Shown: positions 1-51,500 of the stretch, piece after piece
Position numbering within the stretch: position 1 is the first letter of the stretch
How the letters are laid out: each line of letters starts with the position of its first letter
DNA from: Sipunculus nudus
Taxonomy: Eukaryota > Annelida > Sipuncula > Golfingiida > Sipunculidae
DNA length: 64,000 nucleotides
Direction of reading: 5' to 3'
NCBI GenBank assembly: GCA_026874595.1
Contig: CM049316.1
Span: 71,019,176-71,083,175 of the forward strand
Program-made: the position numbers and the translations under genes
Notes under the pieces: generated by a model
What the model saw: only the letters and a program-made list of their open reading frames with translations
Told to the model about the DNA's origin: nothing
Database searches by the model: none

Positions 1-3000
1 TTTGTATGGAGATGATATAAGATTAGGGTGTTTTGTATGGAGATGATATAAGATTAGGGTGTTTTGTATGGAGATGATATATGATTAATATGTTTTGTAT
101 GGAGATGATATATGATTAGTGTGTTTTGTATGGAGATGATATAAGATTAGGGTGTTTTGTATTGAGAGGATATAAGATTAGGGTGTTTTGTATGGAGATG
201 ATATAAGATTAGTATGTTTTGTATGGAGATGATATATGATTAGTATGTTTTGTATGGAGATGATATATGATTAGTATGTTTTGTATGGAGATGATATATG
301 ATTAGTATGTTTTGTATGGAGATGATATATGTTTAGTATGTTTTGTATGGAGATGATATATGATTAGTATGTTTTGTATGGAGATGATATATGAATAGTA
401 TGTTTGGTATGGAGATGATATATGATTAGTATGTTTTGTATGGAGATGATATATGATTAGTATATTTGTATGGAGATGATATATGATTAGTATGTTTTGT
501 ATGGAGATGATATATGATTAGTATGTTTTGTATGGAGATGATATATGATTAGTATGTTTGTATGGAGATGATATATGATTAGTGTGTTTTGTATGGAGAT
601 GATATACGATTATTATGTTTTGTATGGAGATGATATAAGATTAGGGTGTTTTGTATGGAGATGATATAAGATTAGGGTGTTTTGTATGGAGATGATATAA
701 GATTAGGGTGTTTTGTATGGAGATGATATAAGATTAGGGTGTTTTGTATGGAGATGATATAAGATTAGGGTGTTTTGTATGGAGATGATATATGATTAGG
801 GTGTTTTGTATGGAGATGATATAAGATTAGGGTGTTTTGTATGGAGATGATATAAGATTAGGGTGTTTTGTATGGAGATGATATATGATTAGTGTGTTTT
901 GTATGGAGATGATATATGATTAGGGTGTTTTGTATGGAGATGATATAAGATTAGGGTGTTTTGTATGGAGATGATATAAGATTAGGGTGTTTTGTATGGA
1001 GATGATATATGATTAGTGTGTTTTGTATAGAGATGATATAAGATTAGGGTGTTTTGTATGGAGATGATATAAGATTAGTGTGTTTTGTATGGAGATGATA
1101 TATGATTAGTATGTTTTGTATGGAGATGATATATGATTAGTATGTTTTGTATGGAGATGATATATGATTAGTATGTTTTGTATGGAGATGATATAAGATT
1201 AGGATGTTTTGTATAGAGATGATATAAGATTAGGGTGTTTTGTATGGAGATGATATAAGATTAGTGTGTTTTGTATGGAGATGATATATGATTAGTATGT
1301 TTTGTATGGAGATGATATATGATTAGTATGTTTTGTATGGAGATGATATATGATTAGTATGTTTTGTATGGAGATGATATATGATTAGGGTGTTTTGTAT
1401 GGAGATGATATATGATTAGTATGTTTTGTATGGAGATGATATAAGATTAGGGTGTTTTGTATGGAGATGATATAAGATTAGTGTGTTTTGTATGGAGATG
1501 ATATATGATTAGTATGTTTTGTATGGAGATGATATATGATTAGTATGTTTTGTATGGAGATGATATATGATTAGTATGTTTTGTATGGAGATGATATATG
1601 ATTAGTATGTTTTGTATGGAGATGATATAAGATTAGGGTGTTTTGTATGGATATGATATATGATTAGTATGTTTTGTATAGAGATGATATAAGATTAGTA
1701 TGTTTTGTATGGAGATGATATAAGATTAGGGTGTTTTGTATGGAGATGATATAAGATTAGGGTGTTTTGTATGGAGATGATATAAGATTAGGGTGTTTTG
1801 TATGGAGATGATATATGATTAGTGTGTTTGTATGGAGATGATATATGATTAGTGTGTTTTGTATGGAGATGATATAAGATTAGGGTGTTTTGTATGGAGA
1901 TGATATAAGATTAGGGTGTTTTGTATGGAGATGATATAAGATTAGGGTGTTTTGTATGGAGATGATATATGATTAATATGTTTTGTATGGAGATGATATA
2001 TGATTAGTATGTTTTGTATGGAAATGATATATGATTAGTATGTTTTGTATGGAGATGATATAAGATTAGTGTGTTTTGTATGGAGATGATATAAGATTAG
2101 TGTGTTTTGTATAGAGATGATATAAGATTAGTGTGTTTTGTATGGAGATGATATAAGATTAGTGTGTTTTGTATGGAGATGATATAAGATTAGGGTGTTT
2201 TGTATGGAGATGATATACGATTAGTATGTTTTGTATGGAGATGATATAAGATTAGGGTGTTTTGTATGGAGATGATATAAGATTAGGGTGTTTTGTATGG
2301 AGATGATATATGATTAGTGTGTTTTGTATGGAGATGATATAAGATTAGGGTGTTTTGTATGGAGATGATAAAAGATTAGTATGTTTTGTATGGAGATGAT
2401 ATATGATTAGTATGTTTTGTATGGAGATGATATAAGATTAGGATGTTTTGTATAGAGATGATATAAGATTAGGGTGTTTTGTATGGAGATGATATAAGAT
2501 TAGTGTGTTTTGTATGGAGATGATATATGATTAGTATGTTTTGTATGGAGATGATATATGATTAGTATGTTTTGTATGGAGATGATATATGATTAGTATG
2601 TTTTGTATGGAGATGATATATGATTAGGGTGTTTTGTATGGAGATGATATATGATTAGTATGTTTTGTATGGAGATGATATAAGATTAGGGTGTTTTGTA
2701 TGGAGATGATATAAGATTAGTGTGTTTTGTATGGAGATGATATATGATTAGTATGTTTTGTATGGAGATGATATATGATTAGTATGTTTTGTATGGAGAT
2801 GATATATGATTAGTATGTTTTGTATGGAGATGATATATGATTAGTATGTTTTGTATGGAGATGATATAAGATTAGGGTGTTTTGTATGGATATGATATAT
2901 GATTAGTATGTTTTGTATAGAGATGATATAAGATTAGTATGTTTTGTATGGAGATGATATAAGATTAGGGTGTTTTGTATGGAGATGATATAAGATTAGG

Positions 3001-6000
3001 GTGTTTTGTATGGAGATGATATAAGATTAGGGTGTTTTGTATGGAGATGATATATGATTAGTGTGTTTGTATGGAGATGATATATGATTAGTGTGTTTTG
3101 TATGGAGATGATATAAGATTAGGGTGTTTTGTATGGAGATGATATAAGATTAGGGTGTTTTGTATGGAGATGATATAAGATTAGGGTGTTTTGTATGGAG
3201 ATGATATATGATTAATATGTTTTGTATGGAGATGATATATGATTAGTGTGTTTTGTATGGAGATGATATAAGATTAGGGTGTTTTGTATTGAGAGGATAT
3301 AAGATTAGGGTGTTTTGTATGGAGATGATATAAGATTAGTATGTTTTGTATGGAGATGATATATGATTAGTATGTTTTGTATGGAGATGATATATGATTA
3401 GTATGTTTTGTATGGAGATGATATATGATTAGTATGTTTTGTATGGAGATGATATATGTTTAGTATGTTTTGTATGGAGATGATATATGATTAGTATGTT
3501 TTGTATGGAGATGATATATGAATAGTATGTTTTGTATGGAGATGATATATGATTAGTATGTTTTGTATGGAGATGATATATGATTAGTATATTTGTATGG
3601 AGATGATATATGATTAGTATGTTTTGTATGGAGATGATATATGATTAGTATGTTTTGTATGGAGATGATATATGATTAGTATGTTTGTATGGAGATGATA
3701 TATGATTAGTGTGTTTTGTATGGAGATGATATACGATTATTATGTTTTGTATGGAGATGATATAAGATTAGGGTGTTTTGTATGGAGATGATATAAGATT
3801 AGGGTGTTTTGTATGGAGATGATATAAGATTAGGGTGTTTTGTATGGAGATGATATAAGATTAGGGTGTTTTGTATGGAGATGATATAAGATTAGGGTGT
3901 TTTGTATGGAGATGATATATGATTAGGGTGTTTTGTATGGAGATGATATAAGATTAGGGTGTTTTGTATGGAGATGATATAAGATTAGGGTGTTTTGTAT
4001 GGAGATGATATATGATTAGTGTGTTTTGTATGGAGATGATATATGATTAGGGTGTTTTGTATGGAGATGATATAAGATTAGGGTGTTTTGTATGGAGATG
4101 ATATAAGATTAGGGTGTTTTGTATGGAGATGATATATGATTAGTGTGTTTTGTATAGAGATGATATAAGATTAGGGTGTTTTGTATGGAGATGATATAAG
4201 ATTAGTGTGTTTTGTATGGAGATGATATATGATTAGTATGTTTTGTATGGAGATGATATATGATTAGTATGTTTTGTATGGAGATGATATATGATTAGTA
4301 TGTTTTGTATGGAGATGATATAAGATTAGGATGTTTTGTATAGAGATGATATAAGATTAGGGTGTTTTGTATGGAGATGATATAAGATTAGTGTGTTTTG
4401 TATGGAGATGATATATGATTAGTATGTTTTGTATGGAGATGATATATGATTAGTATGTTTTGTATGGAGATGATATATGATTAGTATGTTTTGTATCGAG
4501 ATGATATATGATTAGGGTGTTTTGTATGGAGATGATATATGATTAGTATGTTTTGTATGGAGATGATATAAGATTAGGGTGTTTTGTATGGAGATGATAT
4601 AAGATTAGTGTGTTTTGTATGGAGATGATATATGATTAGTATGTTTTGTATGGAGATGATATATGATTAGTATGTTTTGTATGGAGATGATATATGATTA
4701 GTATGTTTTGTATGGAGATGATATAAGATTAGGGTGTTTTGTATGGATATGATATATGATTAGTATGTTTTGTATAGAGATGATATAAGATTAGTATGTT
4801 TTGTATGGAGATGATATAAGATTAGGGTGTTTTGTATGGAGATGATATAAGATTAGGGTGTTTTGTATGGAGATGATATAAGATTAGGGTGTTTTGTATG
4901 GAGATGATATATGATTAGTGTGTTTGTATGGAGATGATATATGATTAGTGTGTTTTGTATGGAGATGATATAAGATTAGGGTGTTTTGTATGGAGATGAT
5001 ATAAGATTAGGGTGTTTTGTATGGAGATGATATAAGATTAGGGTGTTTTGTATGGAGATGATATATGATTAATATGTTTTGTATGGAGATGATATATGAT
5101 TAGTGTGTTTTGTATGGAGATGATATAAGATTAGGGTGTTTTGTATTGAGAGGATATAAGATTAGGGTGTTTTGTATGGAGATGATATAAGATTAGTATG
5201 TTTTGTATGGAGATGATATATGATTAGTATGTTTTGTATGGAGATGATATATGATTAGTATGTTTTGTATGGAGATGATATATGATTAGTATGTTTTGTA
5301 TGGAGATGATATATGTTTAGTATGTTTTGTATGGAGATGATATATGATTAGTATGTTTTGTATGGAGATGATATATGAATAGTATGTTTTGTATGGAGAT
5401 GATATATGATTAGTATGTTTTGTATGGAGATGATATATGATTAGTATATTTGTATGGAGATGATATATGATTAGTATGTTTTGTATGGAGATGATATATG
5501 ATTAGTATGTTTTGTATGGAGATGATATATGATTAGTATGTTTGTATGGAGATGATATATGATTAGTGTGTTTTGTATGGAGATGATATACGATTATTAT
5601 GTTTTGTATGGAGATGATATAAGATTAGGGTGTTTTGTATGGAGATGATATAAGATTAGGGTGTTTTGTATGGAGATGATATAAGATTAGGGTGTTTTGT
5701 ATGGAGATGATATAAGATTAGGGTGTTTTGTATGGAGATGATATAAGATTAGGGTGTTTTGTATGGAGATGATATATGATTAGGGTGTTTTGTATGGAGA
5801 TGATATAAGATTAGGGTGTTTTGTATGGAGATGATATAAGATTAGGGTGTTTTGTATGGAGATGATATATGATTAGTGTGTTTTGTATGGAGATGATATA
5901 TGATTAGGGTGTTTTGTATGGAGATGATATAAGATTAGGGTGTTTTGTATGGAGATGATATAAGATTAGGGTGTTTTGTATGGAGATGATATATGATTAG

Positions 6001-7862
6001 TGTGTTTTGTATGGAGATGATATATGATTAGTATGTTTTGTATGGAGATGATATATGATTAGTATGTTTGTATGGAGATGATATATGATTAGTATGTTTT
6101 GTATGGAGATGATATACGATTAGTATGTTTTGTATGGAGATGATATAAGATTAGGGTGTTTTGTATGGAGATGATATAAGATTAGTGTGTTTTGTATGGA
6201 GATGATATATGATTAGTATGTTTTGTATGGAGATGATATAAGATTAGTGTGTTTTGTATGGAGATGATGTAAGATTAGGGTGTTTTGTATGGAGATGATA
6301 TAAGATTAGGGTGTTTTTTATGGAGATGATATAAGATTAGGGTGTTTTGTATGGAGATGATATAAGATTAGGGTGTTTTGTATGGAGATGATATATGATT
6401 AGTATGTTTTGTATGGAGATGATATATGATTAGTATTTTTTGTATGGAGATGATATATGATTAGTATGTTTGTATGGAGATGATATATGATTAGTATGTT
6501 TTGTATGGAGATGATATAAGATTAGGGTGTTTTGTATGGAGATGATATAAGATTAGGGTGTTTTGTATGGAGATGATATATGATTAGTATGTTTTGTATG
6601 GAGATGATATATGATTAGTATGTTTTGTATGGAGATGATATATGATTAGTATGTTTTGTATGGAGATGATATATGATTAGTATGTTTTGTATGGAGATGA
6701 TATATGATTAGTATGTTTGTATGGAGATGATATATGATTAGTATGTTTTGTATGGAGATGATATACGATTAGTATGTTTGTATGGAGATGATATAAGATT
6801 AGGGTGTTTTGTATGGAGATGATATAAGATTAGTGTGTTTTGTATGGAGATGATATATGATTAGTATGTTTTGTATGGAGATGATATAAGATTAGTGTGT
6901 TTTGTATGGAGATGATATAAGATTAGGGTGTTTTGTATGGAGATGATATAAGATTAGGGTGTTTTGTATGGAGATGATATAAGATTAGTGTGTTTTGTAT
7001 GGAGATGATATAAGATTAGTGTGTTTTGTATGGAGATGATATAAGATTAGGGTGTTTTGTATGGAGATGATATAAGATTAGGGTGTTTTGTATGGAGATG
7101 ATATAAGATTAGGGTGTTTTGTATGGAGATGATATATGATTAGTGTGTTTTGTATGGAGATGATATAAGATTAGGGTGTTTTGTATGGAGATGATATAAG
7201 ATTAGGGTGTTTTGTATGGAGATGATATAAGATTAGGGTGTTTTGTATGGAGATGATATAAGATTAGGGTGTTTTGTATGGAGATGATATATGATTAGGG
7301 TGTTTTGTATGGAGATGATATAAGATTAGGGTGTTTTGTATGGAGATGATATAAGATTAGGGTGTTTTGTATGGAGATGATATATGATTGGGGTGTTTTG
7401 TATGGAGATGATATATGATTAGTATGTTTTGTATGGAGATGATATATGTTTAGTATGTTTTGTATGGAGATGATATATGATTAGTATGTTTTGTATGGAG
7501 ATGATATATGAATAGTATGTTTTGTATGGAGATGATATATGATTAGTTTGTTTTGTATGGAGATGATATAAGATTAGGGTGTTTTGTATGGAGATGATAT
7601 ATGATTAGTGTGTTTTGTATGGAGATGATATATGATTAGTGTGTTTTGTATGGAGATGATATAAGATTAGGGTGTTTTGTATGGAGATGATATAAGATTA
7701 GGGTGTTTTGTATGGAGATGATATAAGATTAGGGTGTTTTGTATGGAGATGATATATGATCAGTGTGTTTTGTGTGAGGACAATATAAGATTAGTGTGTT
7801 TTGTATGGAGATGATATATGATAAGTGTGTTTTGTGTGAAGACAATATAAGATTAGTGTGTT
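1..7862. repeat. 31-bp minisatellite array, about 250 units
   Basis: A head-to-tail array of a 31-bp unit (for example positions 31-61) runs from the window edge to just before the first visible exon, so its left end is not seen. Occasional 30-bp units lack one T of the TTTT run. Units differ mainly in the stretch after GATATA: AAGATTAGGGTG, TGATTAGTATG, TGATTAGTGTG and AAGATTAGTGTG forms are mixed. The plus strand has almost no C; the rare exceptions are variants such as TACGAT and TATCGAG. The period is not a multiple of three and stops occur in every frame, so it is not coding. The last units, from about 7761, are divergent (GTGTGAGGACAATATAAG-type). The array lies in the intron upstream of the RELCH exon at 7879. 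Confidence 0.98.
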
Positions 7863-7878
7863 TTTATGACTGTTACAG

Positions 7879-10900: not shown

Positions 10901-13900
10901 CCATGGACCAATCCTTAAAAAACTATTTGAAAAAATTGTGTAAAGTAAATAAATATAAAATTTTAAAACTGCTTCAGCCTTTAAGGAACATTGGTTAAGT
11001 ATCTATAGGTGCAGCTCTGAGTTAATAATTAACATTAAACAGTAAATTTGGTATTGCTCATTTCTTTATGGACTTTAAACTATAAAATCATGTAAATCTT
11101 GTAATTGAAAGATAAAGTGATGTAAAGTAGCCTTGTGATTTAATTATTTGCATTTTTCTCCTCTTTTTCCAAAAAATTCTTGCACATTTTACTCAATTAA
11201 TGACCTAACCATTCATGTTAAATAAGCCATTTTGAAAGGAACAAAGCTATATGTTTTTGTCAGCTGAGAATCATGACCTGCGGGTCACTTTTTATGTTTA
11301 TTGTTTTCAGAGAGCAAAAACATACCAAAACAGTCATGGGAGTGAAACGTTGCCACTTGACAAAAATAAATTCATCGCCACGCTGAACATTATACTGGAG
11401 CTGGTTCCGATGCTGTTCGCGTCAGTGCTGCAGACTGGGCCGTACATAGACAAGCTCGACACAGTCACTGAAGTACACACTGTAGAAGGTATACAAGACT
11501 GGCAGTTAATATTCTACCTTTTTCTAAGAATAAGTATGATGTTTGCCTAATAAGCACCCGTGGTGCTTCAGTTCTTGAGTATGTGATGTTTCCAATACCT
11601 GAAGAACAGTCCAATAGTTTTGACTTTAAAGTTTGTCAAATCACATTGGCTTCTATGGTCTAGGGGAAGATTAAGGGTTTGAATCTCAGCTAAGAAGGTG
11701 AGATTTTTCACGCTTGGCACCCACCCAGGATGAGTGCTTTGCAGGCTTAATAGGAAAGCCATGCCCCACAGCTGTGTTTCACTCAAACAAGTGCACCTCT
11801 CAGGGGTTCCTTGATGGTATGATCCAGCAAAGGGGAAGATGGCACACCCAGGTGAAGTAGTCACTGGGCCTAGTTAACACCAGGATTTAAAATAAGAGGA
11901 AGTGTGTTCTGCTGCTGTGTCATATTGTCTAAAACCCAATTGGAATTCTGGAGATAAACATGCTTATTGTATCCGCCAAAACGAAGTTTTGCGGATACTA
12001 TGTTTTTGACCGGGTTCCACCGCCGCCGCCGCGTTCGTTTCCGGAGAACTCCTCTGAGACTACTGGACAGATTTTTCCGAAACTTACACAAATTATCGGG
12101 TCACATGTAAACTGGTGCCTAACCAAGTGACCTTGACCTCTGACCTTTCGTCTCTGCCCAGCGTCCGTTTGTGCGTCTGATTCCACACATAAACCCACAT
12201 ATCTTGGGAACTGTTTGACCGATCCGGAAAAAAATTTTACACAAATGTAGCCCTGGGATAGCTTTATAACATACACAACAAAAGGTGGCGCCACCTGCAA
12301 CCATGTTTGCACAGTGTCCATCTGTTCATCTGCCTGGGGTTAAAATCACTCATATCTCTGCAGTGGTTTGACTAATTCACCTAAAATTCGGCATGCATAT
12401 ACATCCTAGATAGCTTTCTCGATTTTTTGACAGGTGGCGCCACCTACATTCACGTTAACGCTCCACACATAAACCCATATATCTCGGGAACCGTTTGACC
12501 GATCCGGAAAAAATTTTTACACAAATGTAGCCCTGAGATAGCTTTATAACATACACAACAAAAGGTGGCGCCACCTGCAACCGTGTTTGCACAGTGTCCA
12601 TCTGTTCATCTGCCTGGGGTTAAAATCACTCATATCTCTGCAGTTGTTTGACTAATTCACCTAAAATTTGGCATGCATATACATCCTAGATAGCTTTCTC
12701 GATTTTATGACAGGTGGAGCCACCTACATTCACGTTAACGCTCCACACATAAACCCATATATCTCGGGAACCGTTTGACCGATCCGGAAAATTTTTTTTA
12801 CACAAATGTAGCCCTGAGATAGCTTTATAACATACACAACAAAAGGTGGCGCCACCTGCAACCATGTTTGCACAGTGTCCATTTGTTCATCTGCCTGGGT
12901 TTAATATCACTCATATCTCTGCAGTGGTTTGACTAATTCACCTAAAAATCGGCATGCATATACATCCTAGATAGCTTTCTTGATTTTATGACAGGTGGCG
13001 CCACCTACATTCATGTTAACGCTCCACACATAAACCCATATATCTCGGGAACCATTTGACCAATCAGGAAAAAAAATTTACACAAATGTAGCCCTTGGAT
13101 AGCTTTATAACATGAACAAAAATGGTGGCGCCACCTGCAGCCATTTTTACACAGCGTCCATCTGTTTGTCTGCTGTGGGATAAAATCACTCATATCTCTG
13201 CTTTTCCACATGAAATTTTGCATGTGTATATATCTTAGATAGTTTCTCGTTCAAATAACAGGTGGCGCCACCTACAATCATGTTTATGTGGCCGAGATCC
13301 ATTCTAATATTTAACACATGTAACTATATCCCCTTGCCATTCAATCCATGCCTCACTTCACCCGTCCTTCTCTGATTTTGGCGGATACCAGTAGTCGCTT
13401 GTAGACTACCCGTATTCTAGTTCCAGCTAGCATTATAAAACGATGGGTGGTTACCTCCAACAAAAGAAAATGCAAAAAGAGTTGATCAAATGCCTGACCT
13501 GAATCTCATTGCCATCCCAGTGATGGCATGCCAGATTATTGGCTTCTGTTGCTCAGTGGTAGAGCACAGGACTCAAAGCCGGGAGGTCGTTAATTCTAAT
13601 CTCAGCCAAGGCGGTGAGATTTTCACCGTTAGCCCCCACCCAGGGTGAGGGCTCTGCAGGCTCAATGGGAAGGCTGTGCCCCACAGCCGTGTATCACTCA
13701 CAAATGAGTGCATCTTTAGGGGGTCCTTGGGTGTTACGACCCAGTGTTATCCCCATGAATGATAACACACCCAGGACCCACATAATATCATAATATGATA
13801 TGAAGAGAGTGCTACTGCCCTGTCACTTAGTCCCAAACCGAAATGGAACTCTGCAGATGTACATACTTAGATTAAGAATTAGATAAGAGAGCATAAGAAA

Positions 13901-39800: not shown

Positions 39801-42781
39801 CCCAAATTGACATTAATACCACTGTTGAAAAAAAAGCATTCCTTGGTGTTTTCTCGCATGGACTGAAGAGTTCATTTGTCTTTTTGTCGAGTTTAGGGCT
39901 CATTTACCAGTGTCAGTGTAGATGATAAAAGAGACCCCAGTTGGTGTCTTCATACTGGTAGGTGCCATTTAGCTGCATAAATCAAGCATTGGCTCAGTCG
40001 GAAGAAAATAAGGGCTGGCTGTTGAAGAGGATTTACATGTTCTTTTTATTGTTTTTTTTTTTTGAGGGGTTGATCATTAAAAAAGCATAAATATTTTCAT
40101 GATAATTTGTAAAATTTACTTATACCCATTCCAACACCCCAGTCCACGTATTTTTTATGATATTTCTTTTAAACTTATTTTGTTTGCTACTACAAAGCAT
40201 TTTTTATCAATCGAGGTAATGTGATAGTTTATGATAATTTAAATCAGTATTAAATAAATATATTTTCCTTGCAGTGCAAGGACAATGGTGACCTGACTAG
40301 AAAGAGCTGCCAAAACTATAGCTAAATTTCCAGTGGCCATTATCTGTTTATTCAAGTTATGTAGGATGGACATATGTGTGACGAAATGAAAGTGTGATGT
40401 ATGGTTGCCATAGTGATGTCATCATGATGAATCAAATGAATATATTTTAAGATCTTCATTTGAGGCGGTCAGTGATATGTCTCAATATACTCTATATATC
40501 TGTGCAGTCATATTTCATTTCAGTTAAATAAATGGAATCCATAAATCGGAGAGTAGTAATTTGCCAACAGATAATTGCCACATATGTCTGACTTGACTCT
40601 GAGCTGAATTAAGGTAAGCTTTTTCGCTTTTTAAAAACATCACAATAAAATAGACAGGCAGAAATGGGTTGTGTAATGGAGTACAGGTAACGTCATCACT
40701 ATCATTTTCTAGGGGGTTGGGTATGCTTTATAACAGTTGCTGTGTATTTTTATCTGTAGGTCACACCATGTCCCTCAAAAGCAGCTAACATTCCCAGAGG
40801 CTTCCTGTTTTTACTATATTCACCCTCAGACATGCTCTTGCAAGCTTAAAATACTTGAAAATCCATTGAAATGGGAAATACATTGAAATACAGTCTTGAA
40901 AATATATTGAAACACACAAATGTCAGATTGAGACATTAATGTTTCTTACAGTTGTGTTTGAAACTTGAAACTAGCCTTAACATTGCTAACAGATATCTAA
41001 GGAATAAAAGCACAACACCTTCTTGGCAGAGGTGTAATGAAGTCCAAAAGTGGGCATCCTGTCAAATAGTACACTGAAATACACTCATATGTATTGAGAT
41101 GTTTTCTTCATATTATTGTTTAAAACTAGCACTTGTAGTTGGATCCTACATACACCCACCAGGATCAGACTCTCATATGTATACATGATGTTAAGCTTGA
41201 TCAACATGGGTTCCCCCGTGAATGGTGGAGCAAGCACTGGCCCTAATAATCTATCAATAGGTATCTTGAATCTGGGGACAAAGAGATCACCCTGTCCCGC
41301 TGTAGAAAAGTAGCCTGTGAATAAAAAACACATATAGTGATCCAGATTATCTCCAAAATTTAACTGGTTATCATGCCATGGGTGTTACACTAACTGACCG
41401 CAAAGTTTCATCAAAATCTGTTCATAACTTTTTTGCTGTCAGTTTCGTCAGACCAACCAACCAATAAAAAAAGGGAACAAATGAATTCAAAAAGTACCTT
41501 AATTAATGTCAAATAATACATCGAAATATGCTAATGTCTTATTTAACTGTTTTATACAAAATATAGTTTAAAATTAAATAGTTATGTAATGTCTGTTGTA
41601 CCAGTTTCTGTTAACTGAACAAAATGAACATTATGTGTTCAAGAAAGATGGAAAACTGAGACACGCTGTCCAAAACACTTGATGAAGCACTTGTATGGTT
41701 GACTGATGGACTGTGAGGGCTGGTTGGATGAGCAAGCCTGCCCCCTCATCAAGGGGAGACAAATGTAGCACTCCAAAATGCACAGACAACCCACCCATCA
41801 AATCCCGATAAAAAGGCTCCTTTATCATTCCATCCCAGCTGTGAATGCGGTGTTTCCTTCCCATGCCACATCATCGTAAATTTCTTTTTCTTTTCTTTCA
41901 GCATCCTCTTGATTTTCTTTTTCTTTTTCAATAGGAAGAATATAATCCATTGTCCTGTCCATGGACAAATTTGTAAAAAAAAATTTCGGGTAAATTTACA
42001 ATTCTGAGCCAGCAAAAAATTTATGACTAGAGGAGTGGTTTTTAATTTGTAGCTCAATCCGAAATGCATTACCCAGCTCTCTTTTTGGTCAGATTACAGT
42101 TCTTGGGCCTGTGCCAGTGTCTGGTGGTTAAAACCAGCAAACTGTGAAATGAAAGGAGATATAGAACAAGTACAGTAAATAACCACTTTAAATTTAAAGG
42201 TGCACATTTAACCTGTGTTAATGAAGATTATCTCTTGAACCTTTTATAAAAATAAACTAAACCACATCAGTTCTACAGTGCACATGCTGACTATTTTGTT
42301 TATATTCATGTTAAAAAGGAAGCCTGCATAAACGCCCAAAATTGTATTAAAAAGGATAGCAGCAGACAAGATTGAAGAAAAAGAGGTTTGCAAATTACAT
42401 TAGATGGTGTTGCTTGACATGCTCTCATTGACAATGTAATTTCCAACTTGGTTAACATGGTTTTACTGTTTGTCAACATGGGCATGTGTACCTTGTTTAC
42501 TAACAGACTGTTGATATACAGGCTAACACATCTGACTTTTCATGGCAGGCCAGAACCACAAAAATACTCCAGGCAGGTGTATAGCTGGCTTTAAGGAGTG
42601 ATATTATTTGGTAAAGTCAGTCTTTGGTATCATAGTATGATAGGGTGAAAAAGATAGATAGAACATAAAAAAAATAATAATTTTATTTTTGTTAACTGTT
42701 AATTTGAAAATTTTTTTTTTCAAACAGTTTTTCTATAATTATACTAGCATGTTACATTTTTTTTCATACACATCTGGTTCT
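36898..42781. other. Large intron segment, about 5.9 kb
   Basis: No gene. At about 37785-37860 a CCAGCCGGTGTCTGTTTGTCCATCTGTC-type stretch looks like a repeat start. At about 41395-41470 a GTTTCATCAAAATCTGTTCATAAC stretch resembles ends of dispersed animal repeats. At about 39120-39560 there is a less AT-rich, non-repetitive island. Confidence 0.5.
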
Positions 42782-42828
42782 TTTTAGCCCTCAGCCCTTA
42801 GGCTGATGGGCTATTGTCGTCACCCAAG

Positions 42829-42850
42829 CTGTCCGTCCGTCCGTCCGTCC
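42829..42850. repeat. GTCC microsatellite
   Basis: About five GTCC units next to the left end of Helitron-like element 2; such runs are common near the starts of these elements. Confidence 0.9.
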
Positions 42851-43665
42851 GGCGTCCGTTAACTTTTACCTTGTGAGCGGGATATCTTGAAAAGGATTCA
42901 CCGTCAGAATTGTATTTCCTCGGTAAAGATGTATATCGACAAAATCTCGGTCAAGTTCGAAGATGGGTGACCTTGACCTATTTTTCTACATTTTAGAGCT
43001 GATTATAGAAAAACACTTAGATGCTCATTAGTCAGTAACCATTTGGTGGATTTTCACAAAACTTACTTTGATTATTGGGACTGATAGTCTGTACCTGCTA
43101 CACTAGTTTGGTTGCGCCACCTACAATTTCTGATTTTTAATTAATTTTTATCGGATTTTTCAACTTTGGGCTTGTGAGCGGGATATCTCTAAAAGGATTC
43201 ACAGTAGGAATATTATTTTTTCGGTGAAGATGTATATTGACAAAATCTCGGTCAAATTCGAAGATGGGTGACCTTGACCTATTTTTCTACGTTTTAGAGC
43301 TGATTATAGAAAAAACATTTAGAAGCTTATTTGTCAGGAACCATTTGGTGGATTTTCCTAATACTTACTATGATCATAGGGACTGATGGTCTGTAACTGC
43401 TGCACGAGTTTGGGGGCGCCATCTACAATTTCTGATTTTTAATGAATTTTTCTTGGATTTTTCAACTTTGTCCTTGTGAGCGGGATATCTCTTAAATGAT
43501 TCACAATAGGAATTTCATTTCTTTGGTGAAGATGTATATGGACAAAATCTCGGTCAAGTTCGAAGATGGGTGGCCTTGACCTACTTTTCAAGGTCACAGA
43601 GCTTATAATAGAATAAAACTTAGAAGCTTATATTTCAGGAAGCATTTGGTGGATTGTTATGAATC
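42850..43665. repeat. About 302-bp tandem repeats in Helitron-like element 2
   Basis: CTTGTGAGCGGGATATCT begins at 42870, 43171 and 43473 (spacings 301 and 302). Units also share GACAAAATCTCGGTCAA and GATGGGTGACCTTGACCTA. Confidence 0.93.
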
Positions 43666-43817
43666 ATGGTACATACCTCTCCATTTTAAATTTATAACTG
43701 AGACATGTACAGGTATACATCCATGTGAGAACAGATATTTAGTACTTGTTACTGTTACCACCTCTAAACACTGTTCTTTTGGCTGAGGGCTTTTGTCAGC
43801 TTCTGCTGATATTCTAG

Positions 43818-45030
43818 TTTTTTCTTCCGATCCTTGCTTGTCTAATACATATTACTTTCATATCACCAAAGCTGTTAAAACAGACTTTATGCATTCTCGT
43901 AACTGATGTGGAAACTATAGTTTAATCTACCAACCCAGCCGCTCCCAGGTATTAGTTGCAGTGGTATATATCTACTGATTGACTACAGCATGTATACAGA
44001 ATGTGCTGATAGCAGGTTGAGCTTCTTGACCTATAGACATTTATTCAGAAAATTTAATAATCTGTCCCATTGATTTCTGAGGGTTTTCATTTGAAATAAA
44101 TCCAATTCCACTGAACATATACATATATACATATAATATATCATAGTTTTGAGTTAATCAAACTCTTATTACTCATGAATGATAGGTGTTTTCATTCCTC
44201 AGCATATCACATTGCTTTGCTATATTGCATGAGCTGATATTATATTTCTGGATTAAACTAAATTACTCCATCTCATCTTTTCCAATAAATAGCTGTGAGC
44301 AGGTGCCTTAAATTAGAAAATAATGCCATTGTATAAAATATAAATGTAAGTATATTTCCTTTAGAATGATTTTATGTACATTTGACATTAAATGGATCAG
44401 TGATTGTTACCACAACACAATATAATATTCATTTATTTATCAGATCGGCCAGAGTTTCATGATGCCCTGCATTCCAACTATATTTCTGTCAATATTTCAG
44501 GGATATAGAATAGGAGATTTTTTCAGATTATAAGTTTTGCAAAAGGACAATTTTGATATATTTTTATTTTCTTTAATTAATACTTTGTATTTCTAGGAGT
44601 TATATTACGATTTGAAAAATATCTTTCCTGTGGCTCACAGAGTTATGAATTAACAGTCATGACTCTTGGAAATCGTAATCATATAATCATGTAAGGACAC
44701 AGTTTCTAATCACATAATGTTAGGATAATGACAAAAAGAAAGATTCACATTCTAACATAACCATAGAAAATTTGACGCATATCATCTACCATTGGGATGC
44801 TCCGAACTCAGATGGGACACTCTAACATTATGGAATGAGTGTCCTTGACTCTTCAGATTTTCTTCTTATTGAATGCCCTGGAAAACTGAAAAATGCATTA
44901 AATTGTACCTCATAAGTATGTTTACAAAAGTGAATAAATCGAGAGCAAAAATAATCATTAAAAAATAGTTATAACACTTAGAACAACAGAAAGATAAAGC
45001 TTTCGTATTCTGAAAACCAAGTGGCCCTTG
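43818..45030. other. Large intron segment, nothing recognised
   Basis: AT-rich DNA with a short ATACATATA-rich patch at about 44117-44145. No gene or element seen. Confidence 0.6.
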
Positions 45031-45450: not shown

Positions 45451-48342
45451 TTAATCTTGTTTACCTTTTGTCCTTAATTCCATTTGGAAGAATGTGCCAT
45501 TAGTTCAGTAGTGGTTGATTAGGACCCACTTTACACATATACACTCACAATCTTGTTTACACATTTTGGCATTTTTTACTCATATTAAATTATTATTAAT
45601 TTGTTTATACTTCCATGTGTATGTACATCTCCATCAGTCAGACCCTCTTTACTTCTACATTTATCCTACACCAGTGTTGATCTTTATACATACAATGTCA
45701 ATGAAAGTTTGAAACTGCTTCAGAAACTATATCTGTATCTTTAGAAAATGTTAATTCCCAAGAAAGTCTCATAACTTCAATCAATCCTGCATGTCTCTTC
45801 CTTCCTGTATAAACCATGTACCTCATTAGCTTCACCAGGAAGATCTTGTTTTATCAGCATTGTTTTCTTACTGTAGATCACCAAAACAACTTAAATGAAT
45901 GTTCATACATAAACATTGAAAATCAAGAATGCATCTTATCAGACAAATATGTCTCCTTATCTGCCCTGGCTTCAGCATAATTATCACTCCACAACTAATT
46001 AATGTCAAGTAAGGTGAATCAATTATTACTCTTGGAGCTAAAATTTTCATTGTTTTCATGTTTGATTAGCTTGCTGCATAACTTTCCACTGCTTTTTACT
46101 TTTCTTGAACCATAAAGTGACCAGGAAAGCCACCTTTAACCATCAGTAAAGTGAGCCAAGTAACTCGTTATAGTCTGGGAAATGTATTTTCCATACCCCT
46201 GTGTATAATAAGGTACTTTCTTCATTTTGATACAATTTATGAATTTTTAGACCAGAAATTAAAATGAGTTTCAATTTTTTTGAGAAATTATATTTTGTTC
46301 TTTTGGGATTAATTAAATTTCTACCTTTGCCATTCAACATAATTGTCATAAACAAGAAGGAAAATATGTGACTTATGAAAGTTAGTTGATTTATAAACTC
46401 TTGGAGGATTTTTTTCTGTTCCTTTGTGATTAATTAGGTTTCCATCTATGCGTTTCATGTCCACCCATGCTCTCCATTGCAATTTTCATTGACAAGAAGT
46501 AAAGTATGTTACTTACTGCAAACAGTTTAATTTATTTTAGTCTCTCAGTTGATTAGATTACTGTATCGGTTTTTCCACAATTTTCTTTTTACCATAAATT
46601 AACTTTGGTACTTAGTTACTTCTGGTTTGTCATGCCTATTTATGATGTTACTATAGTTTATCGTTGCAAATAAGATTTCTTTAAATGGGCCTATTCCGAT
46701 ATCTGACATCTATCAAATGAAGATAACCCATTGAACCTTTAATGAAAATAGGCCAGAAAATGCTGTTCCCATCTCATGCAGGCTATTCATTTTGTTAATT
46801 TCCACATGTTTATAACATGTGGGTGGCCTGCCAAAATAAACCAAACACATTCAACATGGGTATCTTGCAGCTATTCAGAGGAATCACAGATTTGCAAAGA
46901 GCATTTTGCAACTAGTGACTTTCATTTCAACTTCTGCAGACATGCAACCAACCAACTCTGAAGTTGCAAAGTTTTTCTGTTTGTTGATATTGGCTGGCAC
47001 ATGTGCCATGTTTACTAACAACTTGCATATAAACAAGCTCATACATCCATCACAGAGGTGTTATAAGAACTTTTTATTAATATGTTCACAGAGTAGGCCA
47101 GAAATCACATACATTCTACAGACTAGGTAGATGAGTAGGTTGCTTGAAGAATTGAAGAACGTCCTTGCCATAGAAGCTTCATTCTAATTCACTCTAATGC
47201 TCTGTAATCCTCAGTGTATCAAAGTTGCGGTTCATGCAACAAAGGAAATAATATACTGGTACATTGGCTCTGTGCAAACTATGAGAAATGGAAAGCTACA
47301 ATTTTAAAGATAAGTAATGGTTCACATTTATCTGGCAATGCCAGGTAAAATCCTCCGTATTGTCCATTGTCTGCGTGAATCACATACAGATTAGCCAGTG
47401 ATCCGAGCCGCTGTAACCACAGGGTGTGTGATTCTTATTCAAGACCTTGAGAACGGAGGTGTGGGTTTCAATTTCGTTGGCTGGCTGGTGACAGATTGAT
47501 GGAAATCACCATTGACACCTTTAAGGTCACGCCACATGGTTCCCTGGGTATGATGACCTTAGTAGCCAACTGTCTGCTGGGATAAAACTTGGACATCTGC
47601 CAATGAAACCTGAAGTTTTGGATAGCTTTTGTGTCCATCAGTCATGTCAGTAGCTTCCCCCCTATTTAAATTTATTGAACACTAGAATATATATATATAG
47701 AGAGAGACCAGATAAAAGCAGTATCCAGCATATAATATGCTCATAAAATTTGACATAGGTGATTTGTGAAAATTGAATTTCATGAAAATTTCCTGCAGGA
47801 TACCATATTTTTGATTTTTATCTACCTGGGATATTATTAACAAGAGCACCATCAAACCTTAAACAACAGGAGACTGTAGTTGTTGTTTCAATTTCAATTC
47901 AAGTGTGAATATTACATGCGGCAGTTTAATTTTCTGCTTGTATCTAGTTTTGGTATTCAGGTAAATCACAAAGCTGTTTTATGACTGGTCTGTTGGTTTC
48001 TTAATACTAGCAAGAAGGCAGGAGATATTGCGTGACATAACGGTGATTTAATTCTCTTCATCTCCCTAAGCGGGTGACTAGCAGCTTCACTCCTGCCAGA
48101 CGACGGAAACTATTGGATTATCTGACATATCAGTCCCTCTGATTACAGCTATGCAATAAGTGTTATATATATATATATTATCTAATGTCTCAGGGGCTTT
48201 TAGTATCTCAGAAACATTGCTGATACATTTATGAAGTTGTGTCACCCTTATCTCACATATCATCTATGGTGGCAATTCCTTATGTTAGGTTAAACTTGGA
48301 TATGAGAGATTTGTCCAAAGATATAAAATTTATATTTTTTTT
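45451..48342. other. Large intron segment with a candidate island
   Basis: Apart from the old duplication at 46240-46520, no gene or element was recognised. Positions about 47330-47600 are less AT-rich and non-repetitive, possibly regulatory. Short AT runs are at 47686-47699 and 48164-48179. Confidence 0.5.
46240..46520. repeat. Old tandem duplication, about 121 bp
   Basis: TTCTTTTGGGATTAATTA (46298) and TTCCTTTGTGATTAATTA (46419) are followed by similar blocks ending AAACAAGAAGGAAAATATGTGACTTA and TGACAAGAAGTAAAGTATGTTACTTA. Strongly diverged. Confidence 0.6.
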
Positions 48343-48471
48343 GCATATATATATATATACTTATCCATTTGTACTGTATATATATATATATATATATGCT
48401 TACTATAATGTATGCATATTATATGTATACTTATGTGTTTGGTACCCATGCATGACTCCTTATGTCTGTTC

Positions 48472-48533
<62 letters not shown>
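48343..48533. repeat. AT dinucleotide repeats
   Basis: Runs at about 48344-48358, 48375-48398 and 48473-48533, the last about 30 units. Isoleucine-tyrosine frames on both strands are by-products. Confidence 0.95.
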
Positions 48534-48540
<7 letters not shown>

Positions 48541-51500
48541 TATTTATTTTATTTATTAGATAAAAATACAAAAATTTAAAACTTAATTATTAAAAAGGTA
48601 GGCGGTTGGTCCACCAACTTTATGCTGGTTCAAGCATTCTGGTCCACACCTCTATTGCTGAAGTAATTATTACAATTAACTTCTGGATTATTACAAGTCT
48701 CATGCCTTGAGACTTAATTCCTGTCAGTAAATACTGAAACTATTTGTCAAATGCAGAGCTCCCCTGATTCCTTCATCTTGTATATTTTCTTGAATAAAAT
48801 GGTCTCCTATGATTTTTCCATATATTCAAGCTGAAATTTATACTAAAATATCCTACTTTTTCCTATATTTTTCATTGCACAATTTTATTTCCAATATAAT
48901 TGTTATTACTGAATATTTATGATTACATAGCAGTATTCTTGAAAACATTCACCTCATTTGTAGATTTTCTCTATTTGGCTGGAAATTCCTATATTGTTTT
49001 GTCTCAGTAGACCTTTTCAAAGAGCATGCACCCCATGTGTTTAAGCTGGGTAAGGTTCTGCAGGGTTTGGGACATCTGACCTCTGCATGTAAACAAACAG
49101 GGGAGACGATTATATCAAGTATTCAGGTGCCTAATATTAATAATTAGGAGGTAGAATGTAATTATATTTTAGCTAGGATACTACATTTCTGTTTTATGAC
49201 AATACATAAAGGAATTCAAATCAGTATTTTTTAACTTACGTAGCATGGATTGTCAGTTATATAATATGTACGTTCAAAACATAGCATTTCAAGATGAACC
49301 CTGTTTCGTTAAGGTTCTCACGGTTGTCAATGACGCTACAAGTTATGTCTTGCAACAGGGCCAAAAATACAACCGCTTATGCCGTGGGCTGCTGTGCACG
49401 TGTTTGCTACCAACCCAGAATCATACATGTCGGCTTTCTCCCAAAGGTGTCACTAGTGAAATGGAAATGAGCTATTGAGTCATCATATAAAATTCCTACC
49501 TATCTTCAGGATCCTGGTGGGAGTCCTGCAATTATCAAATGGACATTTTTATCATCTTTAGGTATAGAGAAAACCTGCAGTCATTTGTCCTAAACTTAAG
49601 AACTCTTTTCCTAAGAAAAGAGAAATTACAATTTTTTCTTTTCCAAAGAAATGAAATTTGTTACATTTTTTTCATTATGAAAAATTATACACCAGTTGTA
49701 TTTTCTTTAATAATCCATTAGGTCTTCCTTATGAAACTTTGAGACTATTGTTTTTGACACAAATGGGGTCTTTAAGTACTTTGAATCATCCAATAAAATG
49801 ATTCTTTTGGTTGTTTTATATATGTGGTTATTCATGTGGTAGGAGGATTATCCCTCCCATGACGGCAATCACAGCAGTTCTTGCCAAGGTAGGATGTCTA
49901 TTTATCTCTACCCCTGAGGAACTTACACTATCATCAACTGAATTGTAACATCGTTTTTTTTTCAGGGAAGTAAAAAGTGATGAATGCACAAGGATTTCTG
50001 TTGTGTGCTTTGTAACGTTTTATATCACTGACATAAACAGCAAATAGGGAGTTCTCAGAAAAAATTGGGTCAATACTTTTCCAGTGTTACAGTGCCAAAG
50101 ATTTATTAAGGGATTGAAGGAGGAAAAGGGCAAGGCTTACAAAGAAAATAGATACGTTATTTTTTTATCAGCCCTACAGTAGTACTTGCTTGTTTTATTC
50201 ATGGTGTAGCATTCACTTTCCACATCGCCTGTCTTCATGTGTCCTGGCATTTATGGCCTCATTGCTCCACCTCCAGACTTTTCCATCTTATTCTTCCTTT
50301 CTTGCTTGAAAGGAGACCCTGCCATCCTATACATCCTTGTTCCTTAACTGACTCACTGCCTCCTTCCTTTTGGTATTTGGACTTACCATGTTTGTCCCTT
50401 TCAGACTGCCATGGAAGGCCTGTCGCATAGTGTTTTTCTCTATCACAATGACATGCCCTGTCCCTTCAGTGGCTGCAACGATTCAAATATGCACTGATAC
50501 ATTGTACTACCAAGTCAAATTTATCTTATCACTATCATCAGAAGTACTTCCAAAAATATTTTATTAAGATCTATTTGACATTATATTTTATCATCCAATT
50601 AAAAGAGACTGTCAACATTAAAACAAAAAATTCAGCTGCATATAAGGTATCTAAGTTAAACATAATAAAACGGCATCAAATTGGCAAATAGTTTAGAAGT
50701 CAATTTTATTTATGGTTTGGAAATAGATTTTATGAGAGTAGGCATATTCAAATTTCTGTATAACAGGATAAAGATCAGCTTTGAATCCAAATAATAATAA
50801 TATATTGATGTATATTTATCGAATCTTGTACCACATTGGGATATTTATCAATAATATGTGTATCAATAAGGTATCATTGCAGCACTAATCCCTCCTGTCT
50901 CCCATCATATCGTTCATGACTGATCTTTTAATGCCTGTAATTTGTTTAATTTAAATCTATAGATATTCGTAATTGTTTTTGGTTATCATATTCTTGTGTG
51001 TCTGCTCATGCTGTTTAAGTGGCATACATATACTTTCCTTTACACTTTTTCAGTTCATTTTCCATGTTTCTTGTGCATATGTTATACTGGAGAGATCCAA
51101 CACCCTGCAAAAGTCATGAATTATAAAATTTAAAAATTCAGTCCTTTAAAAGTCATGATTTTTGGGGATTAAAAAAAATCATGACATTTTATTTGCAGCT
51201 TAACTAAAAATGTCTCTCTTTGGAGCTATCTTTCTGTTGATAAAATAGTAATGATTTAATTAATCACAGCTACCAAGTCAGATTGCACTGAAATATCCAA
51301 AGTCATGGGGGTGGGGGGAAGGTTTGATGATGTTTGTTTTAGGTCAAGAAAAAGTCAGGAAAAGCTTTTGGAAGTATAGTAATCCTGAAAAGAGTTTATA
51401 AATGGACTCTGTATGTTTGTTTATGTTCATTGTCTATTGTCTATTGCCTTAATTAAACTGGTTGATAATTTCAACACAAAATTTATGATGAAATTTAGCC

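Follow-up and report, generated by a model that had tools for sequence, protein, structure and literature searches.

A probable non-autonomous Helentron with a tandem-repeat core in Sipunculus nudus, and a second element of the same plan nearby

The DNA analysed here, referred to as the window, is a stretch of 64,000 nucleotides from the genome of Sipunculus nudus (GenBank assembly GCA_026874595.1, contig CM049316.1). Within it lie two short elements of similar construction, of which the second, element 2, is our main subject; its parts are listed in Table 1 together with the position of element 1. Published work is cited by PMC number.

Table 1. Parts of element 2, and location of element 1, in window coordinates
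Feature	Position	Strand	Basis or remark
Element 2	42785-43817	+	~1.03 kb
Left-boundary T-run (insertion site)	42781-42785	+	sequence
5' palindrome made of TAGCCCTCAGCC, a CTTA loop and GGCTGATGGGCTA, the latter with one bulged base	42785-42813	+	ssDNA fold
Left end TAGCCCTCAGCC	42785-42796	+	
Loop CTTA (4 nt)	42797-42800	+	
Inverse of left end, GGCTGATGGGCTA	42801-42813	+	one bulged base
5' subTIR AGCCCTCAGCC	42786-42796	+	11-bp exact pair, strict plan scan
(GTCC)5 microsatellite, left module	42831-42850	+	
Tandem core, 2.6 units of ~302 bp	42861-43655	+	TRF; units 82-87% identical
3' subTIR GGCTGAGGGCT	43781-43791	-	exact inverse of 5' subTIR, 11 bp
3' hairpin TCAGC-ttct-GCTGA	43796-43809	+	5-bp stem, loop TTCT; modest stability
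3' terminus TATTCTAG	43810-43817	+	also ends element 1
Right-boundary T-run TTTTTT (insertion site)	43818-43823	+	
Element 1	11967-13420	+	same plan; subTIR GTATCCGCCAAAA, 280-bp core units, TATTCTAG end

Element 2 starts with TTTTTAGCCC, without a 5' TC, and its left end folds back on itself: as single-stranded DNA the 29-nt palindrome has a folding energy of -11.6 kcal/mol (z -4.8), and none of 200 shuffled versions was as stable. A gap of 10 bp separates the (GTCC)5 microsatellite from the tandem array, in which TRF recognises 2.6 copies of a 302-bp unit with 87% matches. The first and second units are 87% identical, the second and third 86% and the first and third 82%, the latter two values being taken over 192 bp; there is no sign that the 302-bp unit is itself a dimer (123 of 200 shuffles were as good). 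Between the array and the inner inverse of the left end, GGCTGAGGGCT, lies unrepeated DNA. The hairpin that follows directly abuts TATTCTAG, and so stands 8 nt from the end; the last four bases of the element, CTAG at 43814-43817, fit the consensus CTRR. From the 3' subTIR to the final G is 26 nt, or 32 nt if the T-run is counted. T-runs flank the element on both sides and, in the one copy available, no other flanking duplication is visible by eye.

The weakest part of element 2 is its 3' hairpin, whose strength varies with the piece that is folded. Its z-score is -3.5 in the piece 43788-43820, with none of 200 shuffles as good, but falls to -2.05 (8 of 200 shuffles) in 43770-43830 and to -1.8 (10 of 200) in 43781-43817.

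The longest open reading frame overlapping element 2 encodes 68 amino acids. A Pfam scan of 10 of the 15 overlapping frames of at least 35 amino acids returned no family at E values up to 0.1, nor did a scan, at the same limit, of 10 of the 29 frames of at least 90 amino acids in 7900-64000. Rfam gave no matches at gathering thresholds, ARAGORN reported no genes, and no autonomous partner for element 2 was seen. As far as the scanned frames show, element 2 has no coding capacity, as is required of a HINE (Helentron-associated interspersed element).

How readily could such an arrangement arise by chance? One explanation is that a short satellite array merely happens to be flanked by inverted repeats, and a loosely defined plan does indeed arise at random: a loose scan returned 12 rows on the + strand and 3 on the - strand of the window (several per element), against 0 to 6 rows in each of 10 controls scanned on one strand. 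Looser rules thus fail to set the plan apart from chance. A strict definition behaves differently. It comprises an 11-bp exact inner inverse, a 5' inverse with at most one mismatch or one bulge, a hairpin, CTAG and TT; applied to both strands of the window, it recovers only 11967-13420 and 42785-43817, and applied to one strand of each of 300 order-2 Markov sequences of 56.1 kb it recovers nothing. With the arms relaxed to 9 bp the same two elements are found in the window, and hits appear in 2 of the 300 controls. Since, in addition, both elements end in the same octamer, we regard a chance association as extremely unlikely. The earlier note had described the plan as left end, short loop, inverted left end, tandem core, inverted left end, hairpin, TATTCTAG and TT; every one of these parts is present, the qualification being that the 5' inverse is imperfect by one bulged base.

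The octamer alone carries no such information. It occurs three times in the window where 2.73 occurrences are expected, which is chance level, so only its placement counts. The occurrence outside the two elements, at 47682-47689 on the - strand, was considered as the end of a third element and rejected: it comes after an AT microsatellite, and the strict scan finds no element there. A mismatch-tolerant scan with the four CTRR ends, run without controls, gave five end sites besides the two elements, at 48628 and 58404 (+) and at 41126, 25832 and 14555 (-). With AT-rich arms and a single row each, these were not accepted as elements.

The plan of element 2 is that published for HINEs, and the kind of element is therefore already known. 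HINEs carry 5' and 3' subTIRs of about 11-15 bp, and the subTIR of element 2 is an exact pair of 11 bp; they have a palindromic 5' subTIR or a complementary inverted repeat (IR) nearby, here present with a 4-nt loop and one bulge; and beyond the 3' subTIR, close to the 3' end, they have a palindrome or stem-loop, a position occupied by the modestly stable hairpin of element 2. Inner microsatellites or tandem repeats, frequent in HINEs although not obligatory, are represented by both (GTCC)5 and the 302-bp array. We conclude that element 2 is very probably a non-autonomous Helentron, that is, a HINE, with a tandem core, about 1.03 kb long and inserted in a T-run. Several points weigh against this assignment: boundaries and mobility are judged from a single copy, no autonomous partner was seen, the 3' subTIR lies closer to the final G than in the mite HINEs, the hairpin is weak in longer context, the core unit exceeds the averages reported for the oyster HINEs, and the collections searched yielded no relative.

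Those oyster elements, the Cg_HINEs of Crassostrea gigas, offer the closest comparison. As described (PMC7492417), their subTIRs are 11-12 bp long, with a complementary IR of 7-12 bp at a distance of 1-12 bp; their microsatellites, situated in the left module and 10-500 bp ahead of the array, are mostly of 4-nt units, GTCC in several; the right part consists of the tandem core, in constant orientation, followed by the 3' subTIR and a palindrome; and insertion is into a T-rich target without duplication. Element 2 resembles them in all these modules and, with its T-runs, in a T-rich target, and its microsatellite gap of 10 bp falls within their range. The difference lies in the unit, ~302 bp in element 2 against cluster averages of 140-180 bp, a comparison made by description rather than by sequence (PMC7492417). 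Element 2 likewise resembles HINE-Mo of mites, DINE-1 and Helentrons in its 3' stem-loop, its T-rich target and its inner repeats, some copies of those elements having tandem repeats or microsatellites, and its palindromic subTIR is like those that Thomas et al. report for the mite families (PMC4067079). The mite HINEs differ from it in that their 3' subTIR lies 38-60 bp from the terminus, rather than 26 nt (PMC4067079). By description, element 2 is also like the bivalve pearl family (CvA, CvE, CvG), DTC84 and MgE, which are modular and carry short central satellite-like arrays (PMC7492417, PMC5139131, PMC11136912).

The pearl elements bring in a further interpretation, since modular elements of this type were first described as MITEs (PMC5139131). 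Element 2 might accordingly be of the fold-back or MITE-like type and owe its movement to a cut-and-paste transposase, and it does have an 11-bp inverted repeat pair near its ends. The right-hand repeat is internal, however, and is followed by the hairpin and CTAG; apart from the T's, the one copy shows no visible target duplication; and the asymmetric plan suits HINEs. We consider this origin very unlikely.

A non-autonomous canonical Helitron, with a 5' TC end and inserted between A and T, has somewhat more in its favour, although it too is improbable. The 3' hairpin followed by CTAG is what such an element should have, and oyster elements of mixed features are on record (PMC7992393). Canonical Helitrons, however, are defined by a 5' TC, the lack of terminal inverted repeats and an AT target (PMC4067079, PMC4778049), whereas element 2 begins with TTTTTAGCCC, has subTIRs and is bounded on both sides, in its one copy, by T-runs rather than by A and T. 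The CTAG-ended Helitron-like elements of C. gigas illustrate the overlap: they share with element 2 a hairpin followed by a CTAG 3' end, and 257 of 751 have subTIRs, 33% of these with an IR, but they differ from it in that they have a 5' TC, lie between an A and a T in 86% of cases and have a microsatellite in only one (PMC7992393). The designation 'Helitron-like' in the earlier note is right at the level of the superfamily; the palindromic subTIRs and T-rich target place element 2 more closely with Helentrons and HINEs than with canonical Helitrons.

Having arrived at a HINE as the preferred reading for element 2, what can be said of its relationship to element 1? The subTIRs are unlike (GTATCCGCCAAAA in element 1, AGCCCTCAGCC in element 2), and each inner inverse fits its own left end, which bears out, for these two elements, the proposal that a left end pairs with its own inverse within an element and differs from one element to another. 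This pairing is not new, as a matching subTIR is the published basis of Helentron family names and element-specific changes in subTIR and IR are reported for Cg_HINEs (PMC4067079, PMC7492417). By sequence, the two elements would be assigned to different Helentron families, because the naming rule of Thomas et al. requires an identical subTIR of at least 11 bp (PMC4067079). The hairpins are also unlike, in sequence, in loop (7 nt in element 1, 4 nt in element 2) and in the gap to TATTCTAG (3 and 0 nt respectively). The core units, which had been put at about 300 bp in both, are ~302 bp in element 2 and, by TRF, 280 bp in element 1, where each unit is made up of two diverged halves of ~140 bp (none of 200 shuffles was as good). 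A SINE-like repeat of tRNA-derived look, with two copies recognised by eye, flanks element 1 at 11700-11966 and 13540-13880; the first of these copies seems to have element 1 at its tail, and ARAGORN finds no tRNA.

Two unlike families of one plan thus lie within a 32-kb stretch, a situation known genome-wide in oysters: the 11 Cg_HINE elements include some mutually unrelated in every module, and unrelated families of one plan share that genome as they do here (PMC7492417). Element 2 itself adds a cleanly delimited Helentron-type example with satellite-like tandem repeats, and looks like an ordinary but well-preserved case of protein-less mobile DNA carrying short repeats of this kind.

The view that the two elements have only their last eight bases in common proved wrong. 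Both contain TATTCTAGTT, as well as TTTTGGC where the 3' subTIR begins, and two exact words recur on the same strand in both cores: GTGACCTTGACCT at 12127 in element 1 and at 42967 and 43268 in element 2, and GCGCCACCTACAAT at 13265 and 43114 respectively. These words, of 13 and 14 bp, were picked out post hoc; every exact copy of either in the window falls inside the two elements. The real element 2 has three 13-mer blocks in common with element 1, which amount to two distinct words; one block or more was found in 76 of 2000 order-2 Markov versions of element 2, and two or more in 4, these controls being of a kind that does not mimic tandem structure. When the rest of the window was divided into 167 overlapping pieces, a block was found on the same strand in 3 and on the other strand in 4. 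Alignment of unit against unit was no better than chance (249 of 1000 shuffles as good), whereas alignment of the whole elements on the same strand gave a best local score of 31, reached by 2 of 200 shuffles, against 173 of 200 for the opposite strand. From the unit and whole-element shuffles no overall homology of the cores is shown, and only two short motifs stand out.

It is tempting to ask whether the shared words bind host proteins. The complement of GTGACCTTGACCT, AGGTCAAGGTCAC, reads as what we take to be two adjacent AGGTCA nuclear-receptor half-sites, and GCGCCACCTACAAT belongs, in element 1, to a palindrome, AGGTGGCGCCACCT, that has what we presume to be a CTCF-like core. Read as two adjacent nuclear-receptor half-sites, AGGTCAAGGTCA occurs on the - strand at 12128-12139, 42968-42979 and 43269-43280, the only three occurrences in the 64 kb, all inside the two elements. 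All six copies of the perfect palindrome AGGTGGCGCCACCT in the window lie at 12283-13273, the array region of element 1 being 12182-13284. One could imagine that two HINE families with different ends keep, or repeatedly gain, cores binding host proteins, and so scatter arrays of putative regulatory or insulator-type sites; we think this unlikely. A literature search returned nothing that, judged by title, joins Helitrons in molluscs with CTCF or nuclear receptor binding sites.

A mechanism for element 2 can be suggested by analogy, taking the terminator and the cut at CTAG from Helraiser and the T-rich targeting and subTIR rule from Helentrons. A Rep/helicase(-endonuclease) supplied by an autonomous Helentron at another genomic site would recognise the left end, palindromic subTIR included, and nick there; one strand would be displaced across the tandem core by rolling-circle-like replication; the 3' hairpin would act as a stop signal, with the strand cut at CTAG; and the strand, or a circle, would enter a T-rich site and leave no duplicated target. 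In this scheme satellite-like passenger DNA, here the tandem core, would be spread by such elements. In Helraiser the hairpin is a terminator ahead of CTAG and the left end is essential (PMC4778049), one strand is used and circular intermediates arise (PMC5876387). In C. gigas, 10 autonomous elements were described that the authors could not relate to the Cg_HINEs (PMC7492417).

Generalising from two elements, the earlier note suggested that a common protein may read the terminal bases and the hairpin of both. On that suggestion cutting could be signalled by the shared CTAG, with the subTIR as a docking site particular to each family. Helraiser without its hairpin retains 8.8% of corrected transposition, with a larger share of non-canonical events, and an Arabidopsis Helitron hairpin put in its place, or an altered loop, has an effect like deletion (PMC4778049). 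By analogy, these exchanges would speak against the suggestion and against recognition of the hairpin by shape alone; since the losses equal those of deletion, two families whose hairpins are unlike may depend on separate partners or on a more tolerant kind.

Relatives were also sought in collections of other kinds. In viral contigs, neither of two patterns from the core of element 2 nor one from its left module had a match; GGTGGCGCCACCTACAA matched 4 viral contigs, and the left-module pattern matched 10 bacterial contigs. Comparison of both elements with these 14 loci by blastn gave, among the matches listed (40 for element 1 and 10 for element 2), alignments of 13-28 bases, which, being so short, we take as chance. 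A distant blastn search of element 2 against plasmids and phages gave no match. As viral, bacterial, plasmid and phage collections are not meant for animal genomes, the lack of relatives there says little. In the literature, supplements and Repbase aside, we found no printed record of the ends of the element 2 family, and we make no claim that the family is unpublished; a search for core and end sequences yielded one paper, on Arabidopsis to judge from its title.

Two other repeats in the window deserve mention. At 1-7868 a 31-bp satellite unit is repeated ~254 times; its + strand is nearly devoid of C, with a GC skew of 0.99-1.00 across the first 6 kb. The other, at 48345-48533, is an AT-rich microsatellite block that includes a perfect (TA)30.
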